From Candidatus Hydrogenedentes bacterium CG07_land_8_20_14_0_80_42_17 (GTDB lineage Bacteria > UBA8481), in contig PEWQ01000128.1 of assembly GCA_002780065.1 (NCBI GenBank), positions 1-5,011 on the forward strand: a stretch of DNA of 5,011 bases, read 5' to 3'. A program made the translations under genes and the position numbers. Below the pieces are notes generated by a model, which made no database searches, was not told where the DNA came from, and was given only the letters and a program-made list of their open reading frames with translations. The first letter of the stretch is position 1, and each line of letters opens with the position of its first letter. Shown piece after piece: positions 1,229 through 5,011 of this stretch.

Positions 1229-2053
1229 TCATTTAGTAATTAACGATATTCGTATCTCTCCTAAAGAATTGTCCTGATAGACAGATACTTCTCCAGATTT
1301 CATTATCTCCAATAGAGCTAGAAAAGCTGCAATTAATCTGTCCCGAGTAAAAAACGGCGGAAATAACTCAAAGAAAAGGCATGAACCTGTTTCTTCAAGT
1401 TTACTCATTATCAACTTCACCATCTCTTCGATAGGGATCGGTTCTCGCGCCATCTTTTGAACCTCTTCTTTGGGCGCTTTTCTTAGAACTGTGCGGAATG
1501 CGTCAAGTAATTTTGTTAGATCAACTTTTAATATTTCGTTCTCTTTTTGATCTGTGATTGAATTTGATCTCAAAAATATTTTAGCCCTTTCCTTCATCAT
1601 GGACTGCAAACTGCCGGCCGCGGCTTTGAAACGTTCATACTCTTCAAGAAGTCTTATCAACTCTTCTTTGGACATTCCTACTTCTTCTTCTTCAATCTTT
1701 TCGCTCTGAGGAAGAAGTTCATGAATTTTAATTTGAATCAGAACAGCAGCCATAACCAGAAAATCGCCGATTGAGTCGAGTTTTTCAGGGGAAGAGCTAA
1801 TCCACTCTTCCTGCATTCTCTTCAGCTCTTCGAGAAACTGATCAGTTATTTCCGAAATATTGACGTCAGAGATGTTTACCTTTTTTTCTCGGACAAGAAA
1901 AAGAAGAAGATCCAGCGGCCCTTCGAATTTTTCCAGCTTAATGTGATGGCCTTCCCACTTTGTGCCGTCAGGAAGTTTAATTCCGTCAGGAAGTTTAATT
2001 CCGTCAGGAAGTTTAATTCCGTCAGGAACTCTAATCTGTTTCTCTTCGTCCAT
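1229..2053 (-). CDS. scpA: Segregation and condensation protein A (ScpA), with repeat-bearing N-terminal extension
   Basis: ScpA is the kleisin that bridges the SMC heads and, with ScpB, forms the bacterial condensin-like complex on the nucleoid. Its hallmark N-terminal motif FEGPLDLLLFLV is at residues 43-54, followed by a helical region (ISEITDQFLEEL, 67-77; GDFLVMAAVLIQIKIHELLPQ, 96-116) that in the family contacts the SMC neck. A charged coiled stretch (119-160) leads to a C-terminal winged-helix part (TRDRLIAAFLALLEIMKSGEVSV, 236-258) that contacts the SMC cap. Length 274 residues is slightly long for the family. The excess is the first 36 residues or so: most ScpA proteins start only a few residues before FEGPLDLLL, while this one adds four tandem hexapeptides. 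No other ATG lies between codon 1 and that motif. The start overlaps the trpS stop by one base (TAATG), indicating translational coupling, and only a weak GCAGAG stands upstream. The stop is TGA. Confidence 0.95.
   Translation of the reverse strand: MDEEKQIRVPDGIKLPDGIKLPDGIKLPDGTKWEGHHIKLEKFEGPLDLLLFLVREKKVNISDVNISEITDQFLEELKRMQEEWISSSPEKLDSIGDFLVMAAVLIQIKIHELLPQSEKIEEEEVGMSKEELIRLLEEYERFKAAAGSLQSMMKERAKIFLRSNSITDQKENEILKVDLTKLLDAFRTVLRKAPKEEVQKMAREPIPIEEMVKLIMSKLEETGSCLFFELFPPFFTRDRLIAAFLALLEIMKSGEVSVYQDNSLGEIRISLITK
1965..2036 (-). repeat. Tandem 18-bp repeat inside scpA (four units, in frame)
   Basis: Three identical 18-bp units (1965-1982, 1983-2000, 2001-2018; plus-strand unit CCGTCAGGAAGTTTAATT) are followed by a fourth, 2019-2036, matching at 15 of 18 positions. 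They encode IRVPDG and then three IKLPDG at ScpA residues 7-30. The unit is a multiple of three, so gain or loss of copies keeps the reading frame. The near-identity at DNA level indicates recent expansion by slippage rather than conserved protein structure. Confidence 0.97.
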
Positions 2054-3039
2054 TACTCTGCTTTTTCTGCAGGAAGCATTTTTATGGCGTTTCTGATTCG
2101 GACCATAACTGCCTCAGCCGCCATTCTAGCGCGCTCTGCTCCACATTTGATGATTTCAATAACTTCTTCATCTGATAATTGATTTCGCTTTTTTCGATAC
2201 TCTTCAAAATGAGAAACTAAATTTTCAAAGAGTATTTTTTTACAATCCACACATCCTAGTGCTGCACTTCTGCAACCTGACTGGATCTCATCTGTCTTGT
2301 CCGGCGAATATATCTCGTGATATGGATAAAGATTGCATCTCGAAGGCTCCCCAGGATCTGCTCGAAGTTTTCTCGCCTCATCTGTTTTCATTCCGCGAAT
2401 CCGTTTTGATGTAGCTTCTACGGCGGCGGAGAGTTCTAATGTATTGCCGTAAGATTTTGACATTTTGCGGCCGTCTGTGCCCATTAGCTTTGACGCTTTT
2501 GTTAGAAGCGGCTGAGGCTCGACTAAATTTGAGCCGGGATAGTGCGAGTTGAAACGGCGAATAATTTCTCGAGCGAGTTCGAGGTGCACGACTTGATCTT
2601 CGCCGACCGGAACTTTATCAGCGCCGTAAACGGCAATATCTGCCGACATGAGAACCGGATACGACAGGAGCCCGAGATTTTCTGATCCTTCTCCAAGTTG
2701 TAGTGTTCTGTCTTTGTAAGTCGGACATCGTTCCAACCACGATACAGGCGTTACCATCCCGAATAGAGCTGACAATTCAGCATGTGCCGGAACATGCGAC
2801 TGCACGAAAATGGTTGCGCGGTTTGGATCGATCCCAAGCGCCAGCCAATCTTTGACCATCTCGATCGACCACTTGCCAATCTCGTCATTCTTGGTGCGGT
2901 CGGTCAATGCGTGAAGATCGGCAACGAAAAAAAAGCATTTTTCCGTCTTCTGCAGTTCAAGCCAGTTTCGAATAACGCCCTCGTAATGCCCAAGGTGCAG
3001 AAGTCCTGTAGGCCTCATTCCTGACAGTACTGTTCCCAT
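2053..3039 (-). CDS. trpS: Tryptophanyl-tRNA synthetase, iron-sulfur-type cysteine motif
   Basis: Class Ic cytoplasmic synthetase that activates tryptophan with ATP and charges tRNA-Trp. The 328 residues match the usual bacterial length. The N-terminus MGTVLSGMRPTG leads into the HIGH motif as HLGH (15-18); further family landmarks are MSADI (131-135), GEDQVVHLELAREI (146-159) and an intact KMSKS loop (192-196). In the anticodon-binding region four cysteines at 235, 256, 263 and 266 form C-x20-C-x6-C-x2-C. The segment GC..A.LGCVDCKK closely resembles the Thermotoga maritima enzyme, which binds a [4Fe-4S] cluster through C-x22-C-x6-C-x2-C. Cluster binding here is inferred from the motif; zinc is an alternative. 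The start overlaps the stop of the upstream biotin protein gene by one base (TAATG), with GGAG at 3051-3054, 11 nt upstream, as a modest ribosome site. The end overlaps scpA in the same way. Confidence 0.97.
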   Translation of the reverse strand: MGTVLSGMRPTGLLHLGHYEGVIRNWLELQKTEKCFFFVADLHALTDRTKNDEIGKWSIEMVKDWLALGIDPNRATIFVQSHVPAHAELSALFGMVTPVSWLERCPTYKDRTLQLGEGSENLGLLSYPVLMSADIAVYGADKVPVGEDQVVHLELAREIIRRFNSHYPGSNLVEPQPLLTKASKLMGTDGRKMSKSYGNTLELSAAVEATSKRIRGMKTDEARKLRADPGEPSRCNLYPYHEIYSPDKTDEIQSGCRSAALGCVDCKKILFENLVSHFEEYRKKRNQLSDEEVIEIIKCGAERARMAAEAVMVRIRNAIKMLPAEKAE

Positions 3040-4829
3040 TATGGCAAAGACTCCATATACGCCAGAACGCCGTTTTGCTCTGCGGTTTCTCCATTCTCAA
3101 CTGCAAATTTTCTAATTATGCCTTTGCGTTCAGCTTTCACTTCGTGAAAAAGCTTCATTGCTTCCACAAGTCCTATGACTGTATTTTCATCGACTTCGGT
3201 TCCTTCCGTTACAAAAGGAGGATCGGATGGTGAAGAAGCCCGATAGAATGTTCCGGTAAGAGGGGAAATAATTTTTTCGAGTTTAAGGAAATCAGATTCA
3301 ATAGATTTTTTTTCGGAATCTTTTGAGTCTTCAAACTCTGAATCAGAATTAATATTCTGAGTTTGCTGTTTCGTGAATCCTTTGACTAGTTTAATGCGAA
3401 AATCTTTTGAACTTATCTCCAGCCTTTTTATTCCGCGCCGCTTCATGAATGAAGTTAAAAGTTCTAAACGGTTGTCGACTGACTGCAGAATTTGCGGCTG
3501 ATAGCTCGGATCATTTCTCTTTTTAAAATAGAGAAGAGCTGTTTGGCCGAATAGAGCGTAAGTTATGACATCTTCGTATCGCTCGAATACTCCTTCATGT
3601 CTCAATTCGTTTTCGAGTTTCTTCATCATCGGTTCCATTAATAATGATGCTCTGCCTGAAACTCGTTCTATTCCTTTGAAAAGCTCCGGATTTATTTCGC
3701 CGGGCGGTGAGCCATACATACCTTTCAGATAATTGATAACCTCGCGCGATTTTAATTCGTAACGTTTTCCGGAAATGACGTTGTAGATGGCCTGCGCCGC
3801 TACGAGCTGTGATATTGGAGTAGTCAAAGGCGGCCATCCAAAATCTTCTCTGATTCTTGTTACTTCGCTCAGAACTTCAGCAAGCTTTTGCTGAGCGGAA
3901 ATTGCGGCGAGCTCGGAAGAAATGCCGACCAACATGCCTACGGGAATTTTATGTATGGAAATAAGATTTTGAGAAAGATTGGAATCTTCATTGTCTGTTG
4001 CAAATTTCATTGCTACATACTCCGCCGCCTTTGAATAGGCTCTAAGCGTTCTTTGGTCAAGTCCCGTATCAAGTCCTAGGTCGGAGGCGGAATGAATCAT
4101 CGATTCTATAGTCGGTTGAGCCGCAGAGACTGCAAATGGTCCTATAGTGCAGTCAATGCCTTCAGCTCCTGCTTCGAGCGCCGCCGTATAAGTCAACGCG
4201 CCCATGCCGCTTATCGAACGAGTATGAAAAAAAGTTGGAGCTAGTTTCGATAATGAGGTTGCTAATTTCCGCGCTTCTGCAGGAGTTAGCATTCCTGCAA
4301 CGTCGTTTACGCATAAACTTTTGCACCCCATCGCAAGCAATTGACTGCCGAATTCCGTAAATCCTTCGTTTGAATGAACCGGGCTTTGCGAATAAATAAT
4401 TGTTCCTTCAACATCTACGCCCGCCGCAATAAATGTGGATATTACATGCTCTAAATTTCCTATGTCGTTCAGCGGGTCGAATATTCGAGCATACTTAATT
4501 CCGTTCTTCGCTATCTCTTCGGCAAATGCTTTTATTACATCCATAGAGAGAGGATTGTAACCGAGCAAATTCTGACCGCGGACAATAATGCGCATAGGAG
4601 TGTTCTTAAGTTTTCTGCTGAAGATGCGGAGCCGCTCCCATGGGTTTTCATTCAGATATCTGAGACAGGTATCGAAGGTCGAACCGCCCCAGACTTCTGC
4701 AGAGTAGAATCCTGCAACATCCATTGCTTCCGCAAGAGGAATAAGCTCTTCAATGGAGAGTGGCATGCGGCGCAGAGTATGAGACGAATCGCTCAACGTC
4801 GTATCACTTATTTTAATTTTTCGAGTCAT
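3039..4829 (-). CDS. OadA/PycB-like carboxyltransferase (possibly inactive) fused to AccB-type biotin carrier domain
   Basis: The 596 residues resemble the alpha subunit of oxaloacetate decarboxylase or pyruvate carboxylase subunit B, which move CO2 between biotin and pyruvate/oxaloacetate. The order is: HMGL-like TIM barrel (about 1-275; EVWGGSTFD 45-53, RGQNLLGY 84-91, ARIFDPLND 114-122), PYC/OADA conserved domain (about 290-445), a BCCP-like N-terminal helix/strand (LLTSFMKRRGIKRLEI, 457-472), a Ser/Asp/Glu/Lys-rich linker (about 485-515) and a biotinyl domain (519-594) with EAMKL, biotin lysine K559. The biotinyl part is of acetyl-CoA carboxylase type: GTFYR and the 'thumb' SPSDPPFV are typical of AccB, not OadA. 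Aligned by eye to OadA/PC, D14, R84, Y91 and H202 are kept. The carbamylated lysine is N175, the first metal histidine F200, the catalytic threonine V301, and the RDAHQ arginine and glutamine are S13 and H17. Metal-dependent carboxyl transfer is therefore doubtful, so no gene symbol is given. First gene of the operon; no clear Shine-Dalgarno site. Confidence 0.85.
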   Translation of the reverse strand: MTRKIKISDTTLSDSSHTLRRMPLSIEELIPLAEAMDVAGFYSAEVWGGSTFDTCLRYLNENPWERLRIFSRKLKNTPMRIIVRGQNLLGYNPLSMDVIKAFAEEIAKNGIKYARIFDPLNDIGNLEHVISTFIAAGVDVEGTIIYSQSPVHSNEGFTEFGSQLLAMGCKSLCVNDVAGMLTPAEARKLATSLSKLAPTFFHTRSISGMGALTYTAALEAGAEGIDCTIGPFAVSAAQPTIESMIHSASDLGLDTGLDQRTLRAYSKAAEYVAMKFATDNEDSNLSQNLISIHKIPVGMLVGISSELAAISAQQKLAEVLSEVTRIREDFGWPPLTTPISQLVAAQAIYNVISGKRYELKSREVINYLKGMYGSPPGEINPELFKGIERVSGRASLLMEPMMKKLENELRHEGVFERYEDVITYALFGQTALLYFKKRNDPSYQPQILQSVDNRLELLTSFMKRRGIKRLEISSKDFRIKLVKGFTKQQTQNINSDSEFEDSKDSEKKSIESDFLKLEKIISPLTGTFYRASSPSDPPFVTEGTEVDENTVIGLVEAMKLFHEVKAERKGIIRKFAVENGETAEQNGVLAYMESLP

Positions 4830-4910: not shown

Positions 4911-4939
4911 GCCTCGCGTCAATGGATGCCTCGCGTCAA
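4911..4939. repeat. 12-bp direct repeat upstream of the operon promoter
   Basis: GCCTCGCGTCAA occurs at 4911-4922 and 4928-4939, 17 bp apart start to start. It is GC-rich within an otherwise AT-rich intergenic stretch and lies just upstream of the candidate -35 box at 4880-4885. It could be a pair of activator sites or a fragment of a dispersed repeat. Confidence 0.55.
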
Positions 4940-4954
4940 AGAACATGCGAAATA

Positions 4955-5010
4955 ATTGAAAAATGAAAATTGGAAAAATAAAATTTTCAATTTGCACTTT
5001 CCAATTTGCA
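4955..5010. repeat. AT-rich cluster of short inverted and direct repeats
   Basis: ATTGAAAA (4955-4962) is complementary to TTTTCAAT (4984-4991), and AATTGGAAA (4968-4976) to TTTCCAATT (4998-5006). The two pairs interleave rather than nest, so only one hairpin can form at a time. CAATTTGCA is also repeated directly at 4988-4996 and 5002-5010. The stretch has no coding potential and continues past the window edge, so its full extent is unknown. A terminator for a gene further right is possible but not shown. Confidence 0.4.
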
Positions 5011-5011
5011 A

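Follow-up and report, generated by a model that had tools for sequence, protein, structure and literature searches.

A degenerate carboxyltransferase fused to an AccB-type biotin carrier, a candidate acetyl-CoA carboxylase subunit of Candidatus Hydrogenedentes

The locus and its carboxyltransferase domain

The window, by which we mean the whole 5,011-nucleotide stretch of DNA analysed here, carries on its reverse strand a gene for a protein of 596 residues (3039..4829 (-)) in which a degenerate carboxyltransferase (CT) domain precedes an AccB-type biotin carrier. It is the first gene of a run. Its stop overlaps the start of a trpS-like gene (2053..3039 (-)), the stop of which overlaps in turn the start of an scpA-like gene (1229..2053 (-)), both times in the sequence TAATG; the two neighbours were named by eye from the sequence. 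The same gene order is found in G001, the second genome of the phylum, where the orthologue of the fusion is 46% identical. Our sample of the phylum consists of these two drafts, the window's own genome G000 (87% complete, 207 contigs) and G001 (94% complete).

Is such a gene merely decaying? The frame is intact, the orthologue is equally modified, and identity between the window gene and the G001 gene at the three codon positions is 0.55/0.70/0.28. This rules out a decaying pseudogene and indicates that the fusion protein is under strong coding constraint, as the preliminary description had proposed.

Some minor features of the window were also recorded. Close to the N-terminus of ScpA (window 1966-2030 (-)) is an in-frame tandem repeat in which GIKLPD is repeated (KLPDGIKLPDGIKLPDGTKW), with fewer copies in the ScpA of G001. 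A gene that runs off the contig (window 1-1170 (-)) looks by eye like an AAA/DUF4143-type ATPase (GPRKTGKST). At the contig end, the repeat TTGCAAATTGGAAAGTGCAAATTG (window 4987-5011) is found again at the start of contig C12 (L063:38-61). Another intergenic motif, GCGTCAATGGA.GCC, lies near 4917-4935 and is similar to the end of contig C125. The breaks in the assembly are probably due to dispersed repeats.

Residues 1-445 (3495..4829 (-)) constitute a catalytically degenerate CT domain of the OadA/PycB/5S type. It matches PF02436 (E 3.8e-27) and, above cut-off, PF00682; its phmmer matches include the beta chain of a two-subunit pyruvate carboxylase (5ks8, 2e-93), Vibrio OadA (2nx9) and transcarboxylase 5S. 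The AlphaFold model (mean pLDDT 86) superposes on the OadA CT domain 2nx9 with a Z of 50.4 and an rmsd of 1.9 over 437 residues, and the Z for the three relatives 5ks8, 2nx9 and 1rqb lies at 48-50 with about 33% identity. Judged by this model, the OadA/PycB-type fold is intact. PycB and OadA also resemble the window protein in having a C-terminal biotin carrier.

If the fold persists, what has become of the active site? The domain was aligned with 107 distinct relatives, drawn from 80 named loci and from the top-scoring matches in 386 genomes. Ten positions (in the pyruvate carboxylase numbering of the preliminary description) are invariant in 107 of 107, namely R548, D549, Q552, R621, Y628, K718, H747, H749, the first Gly of PGG, and N883; the T882 column holds Ser in 103 relatives and Thr in four. 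At the ten positions the window protein has S, D, H, R, Y, N, H, R, V and G, and V301 at T882. The G001 orthologue has R, D, H, R, Y, I, H, R, F and G, and Ser at T882.

The replacements fall within four motifs. SDSSHT (residues 13-18; 4776..4793 (-)) stands in place of RDAHQS; it keeps D14, a metal ligand equivalent to D549, and lacks the residues corresponding to R548 and Q552. In VNDVAG (174-179) the carbamylated metal-ligand lysine K718 is replaced by N175 (4305..4307 (-)), a position occupied by Ile in G001. In FFHTR (200-204), H202 (4224..4226 (-)) preserves the metal ligand H747, and R204 (4218..4220 (-)), also Arg in G001, takes the place of the second metal-ligand His, H749. Finally, within PVGMLVG (296-302), the segment VGMLVG (297-302; 3924..3941 (-)) replaces GGMxSN, with Val at the T882 position and, in both genomes, Gly at N883. 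All four motifs, and K559 of the carrier, had been quoted correctly in the preliminary description, and its count of five losses among nine named catalytic residues is correct; given the invariance in the 107 relatives, such losses are not chance.

One of its assignments requires exchange. H747 had been read as F and H749 as kept, a register one step of HxHxH out of place. Column 200 is variable (Q/H/F/D/V/E/N); the two invariant His of HxH occupy columns 202 and 204, opposite positions 215 and 217 of transcarboxylase 5S, which we take to be the metal ligands of that enzyme. H747 is therefore retained as H202 and H749 is lost as R204, and the earlier register for HLHxH is ruled out.

Which of the losses belong to the lineage, and which to the window alone? 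Those of K718, H749, Q552, the first Gly of PGG and N883 are common to both genomes, as is that of T22 (Ala in G001); K718 and Q552, described as lost in the window, are Ile and His in G001. The described changes of R548 to Ser and of T882 to Val are true of the window but are not fixed, for G001 keeps the Arg and has Ser at T882. The four residues that the window keeps, D549 (D14), H747 (H202), R621 (R84) and Y628 (Y91), are all kept in G001, in agreement with the earlier reading of D549, R621 and Y628. More broadly, 61 of 89 near-invariant CT columns are conserved in both genomes, eight in one, and 20 in neither; the last include Q17, S18, A21, T22, R23, K175, M177, H204, G297 and N302. No other pseudo-CT was found among the 107 aligned relatives, a set limited to 80 named loci and the highest-scoring matches in 386 genomes.

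Compared with PycB, OadA and transcarboxylase 5S, then, the window protein has lost Gln552, PGG, N883 and two of the four metal ligands, the Lys and the second His giving way to N175 and R204 while D14 and H202 remain. Because this is not the metal site of an active OadA/PycB/5S enzyme, we do not class the protein as an OadA/PycB enzyme. By its sequence it is a pseudo-CT, most likely dead with respect to carboxyl transfer.

The carrier module and the acetyl-CoA carboxylase gene set

What follows the CT domain is a module that the preliminary description had not recognized in full. Residues 451-484 (3378..3479 (-)), conserved in G001, match TIGR00531 from model position 15 and form in the AlphaFold model the helix and hairpin (451-483) of an AccB-type N-terminal domain. 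A low-confidence linker leads to an AccB-type biotinyl domain with a thumb (residues 518-594; 3048..3278 (-)), which bears the EAMK biotin attachment motif (3153..3164 (-)). The attachment lysine, K559, is intact, as had been described, and is probably biotinylated. NCBIfam and Pfam both place AccB-type matches on the biotin domain. The thumb GTFYRASSPSDPPFV and the motif VEAMKLFHEV, present in both the window protein and its G001 orthologue, are of the AccB type; OadA and pyruvate carboxylase have EAMKMEN instead. An OadA-type biotin domain is ruled out by the AccB-type thumb and N-terminal domain.

From sequence and model together we conclude that the C-terminus is a complete AccB (N-terminal domain, thumb and EAMKLF). 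The TIGR00531 match spans model positions 15-152 and scores 81.5 bits, below the curated cut-off of 115.2 bits, and for that reason our claim is limited to a protein that probably works like AccB and does not extend to formal membership of that family. It shares with the AccB of bacterial acetyl-CoA carboxylase (ACC) the N-terminal domain, the thumb and the EAMK motif; it differs in lying behind a CT domain, in its score and in not being encoded beside accC.

Which carboxylase might such a carrier serve? ACC is a core enzyme that commits carbon to fatty acids. The genes accA, accD and accC are present in both genomes, the first two as a check proposed in the preliminary description; the fusion gene of the window does not lie next to any of them. 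A PF01039 search of both genomes gave no carboxyltransferase beyond AccA/AccD. A second, canonical OadA or pyruvate carboxylase, which had also been proposed as a check, was not found in G000, where no other OadA/PC-type CT was detected; G001 has a full-length pyruvate carboxylase on contig C138.

A check for accB had been proposed as well. An AccB-like gene lies directly upstream of accC, but its product has Asp at the biotin lysine. It is the sole other AccB-like ORF in G000 and, besides pyruvate carboxylase, the sole one in G001. The two proteins (128 and 132 residues, 53% identical between the genomes) have no thumb, and both read RVMDVKY, ungapped, for EAMKLxN; the preliminary description did not mention them. 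A contig break interrupts this gene pair in G000: C92 carries the start of accC and C50 the remainder, and the ends of the two contigs overlap. Outside the fusion no AccB-type biotin lysine was found in either draft (87% and 94% complete). With the biotin lysine gone from the accC-linked AccB, no AccB-type carrier other than the fusion was found. A further accB in undetected parts is possible, because there are only two genomes and G000 is 87% complete in 207 contigs.

Intact fusions and biotin-less AccB proteins in other bacteria

Relatives with an intact CT and an AccB C-terminus occur in records of Bacillota, Actinomycetota, Myxococcota, Bacteroidota and Kiritimatiellota. Among them are fusions from Desulfosporosinus (L086), Pelotomaculum (L084), Coriobacteriia (L087), Myxococcota (L067) and Kiritimatiellae (L079) with the domain order of the window protein: OadA/PycB-type CT, AccB N-terminal domain, linker, thumb-bearing biotinyl domain. 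These have a complete CT active site and lie beside accC or accA/accD; the window fusion has a dead CT and lies with trpS and scpA. At the intact loci accC adjoins in 18 of 24 and accA and/or accD in four, 22 of 24 together, the remaining two being short or ending at a contig edge. Like the window protein, such a fusion is often the only AccB of its genome: leaving aside G000 and G001, 24 genomes with a fusion were checked, and 13 of them have no other TIGR00531 match. In one more (G394) the TIGR00531 search reported the fusion as two pieces of one frame. An intact CT with a full AccB inside an ACC cluster was noted at L067-L077, L079, L082, L084, L086, L087, L090, L099, L103, L104, L149 and L150. 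In these bacteria one carrier may serve both pyruvate and acetyl-CoA carboxylation.

Does the dead pair descend from such proteins? In the tree the fusions form two clades and the dead pair sits on long branches. Uniting the pair with one clade, with the other, or with both is not rejected (p-AU 0.78, 0.78 and 0.75), and the free tree search missed trees 11-14 log units better. These data are compatible with an ancestry through a shared carrier. Probably, we infer, the ancestor of the dead pair was a CT-AccB fusion with an intact CT, whose single carrier was shared by both carboxylations, and the pyruvate half subsequently died; the intact fusions of other phyla offer a plausible evolutionary path of this kind.

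The loss of the biotin lysine from an accC-linked AccB is not confined to this phylum. With the accC-linked pseudo-AccB as query, we found AccB homologues with a replaced lysine in another seven genomes, which belong to five families (G005, G030, G170, G177, G235, G292 and G312), with motifs such as SMEITTK, AMDVTTK, SMDILNE, TMGIENE and ALGISSD. All seven lie directly or closely upstream of accC, and in five of the seven genomes a second gene encodes an AccB that retains its lysine. No separate intact-lysine AccB was found in G177 (81% complete), and in G235 the only carrier found was of the PC type. Loci of biotin-less AccB were recorded in nine genomes (L059:90-473 (-), L061:6410-6805 (+), L217, L218, L224, L232, L233, L234 and L241). 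At two other loci, L214 (G284) and L215 (G147), the AccB upstream of accC is thumbless and has its lysine (EAMKVENK and EAMKHKNE), and a second, normal AccB is present; these are possible intermediates towards the biotin-less form.

Plants have BADC proteins, BCCP homologues without the biotin motif that aid assembly of BC and BCCP (PMC11926652). In both cases a BCCP homologue lacks the biotinylation motif and a separate biotin-bearing BCCP coexists with it; the pseudo-AccB differs in being bacterial, in being encoded just upstream of accC and in having no thumb. By analogy, the bacterial biotin-less AccBs may work like BADC, and we make no claim of common descent. Their recurrence upstream of accC suggests that a BADC-like subunit is not peculiar to plants.

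The role of the fusion protein

How might a biotin carrier behind a dead enzyme be used? We consider it rather likely that the fusion is the ACC biotin carrier (AccB) of this phylum, that its dead CT acts as a scaffold, and that its ancestor was a CT-AccB fusion. The presence of separate AccA/AccD, with no other AccB-type biotin lysine found, leads us to this reading. AccC would load a carboxyl group onto the biotin at K559, and AccA/AccD would take it from there to form malonyl-CoA. The dead CT, which keeps its fold and about half its pocket, would most likely hold carriers together. The preliminary description had imagined a scaffold bringing a carrier to a separate CT; AccA/AccD do exist and the evidence points that way, the scaffold itself being the conjectural part. 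In a parallel loss, the AccB-like protein without a biotin lysine upstream of accC would probably have become a structural, BADC-like partner of AccC. Function and scaffold would thus have been swapped twice over: the biotin of ACC appears to have moved onto a protein with a dead enzyme domain, and the biotin site has disappeared from the canonical carrier gene. The library searched yielded no paper that describes a pseudo-CT, treats a CT-AccB fusion as an ACC subunit or reports a BADC in bacteria.

The retained half of the pocket might have another use. R84 and Y91 could bind pyruvate or oxaloacetate. The dead CT would then control whether the carrier reaches AccC or AccA/AccD, and ACC activity would track the keto-acid pool. 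The equivalents of R621, Y628, D549 and H747 are indeed kept in both genomes while the residues for proton transfer and for the metal carbamate are lost. There is a precedent at another carbon node, malic enzyme, whose degenerate PTA-like domain is dispensable for activity (PMC8100219). However, the kept residues may be structural. The metal of pyruvate carboxylase binds pyruvate, and with two of its ligands gone the pocket may not hold such a metal. We think this use of the domain unlikely. In its fuller form, with the retained Arg, Tyr, Asp and His sensing the keto acid and controlling delivery of carboxybiotin, and the biotin-less AccB beside AccC, it is more doubtful still; if true, it would give a bacterial ACC made from two pseudo-subunits and coupled directly to the pyruvate node.

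Could the fusion instead be a relic, or accessory to some other carboxylase, with a normal AccB hidden in the unassembled parts of both genomes? The drafts are incomplete (87% and 94%), and G001 does have a full-length pyruvate carboxylase. Against this, the same absence is seen in both genomes, no other acyl-CoA carboxyltransferase was found with PF01039, the fusion shows strong coding constraint, and its carrier is of the AccB and not the PC type. We regard this reading as improbable.

Least probable of all is that the CT pocket has been remodelled, not disabled, for another carboxyl-transfer or aldol reaction. The fold is intact, and in 10 of the 20 replaced near-invariant columns the two genomes agree on the replacement (for example Q17H, H204R and N302G). 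Such a proportion, however, matches the background identity between the two CT domains (47%) and so reflects constraint without special selection on the pocket. A shared new site would be expected to be fixed, but the two genomes differ at the position of the carbamylated lysine (Asn and Ile) and at that of T882 (Val and Ser).
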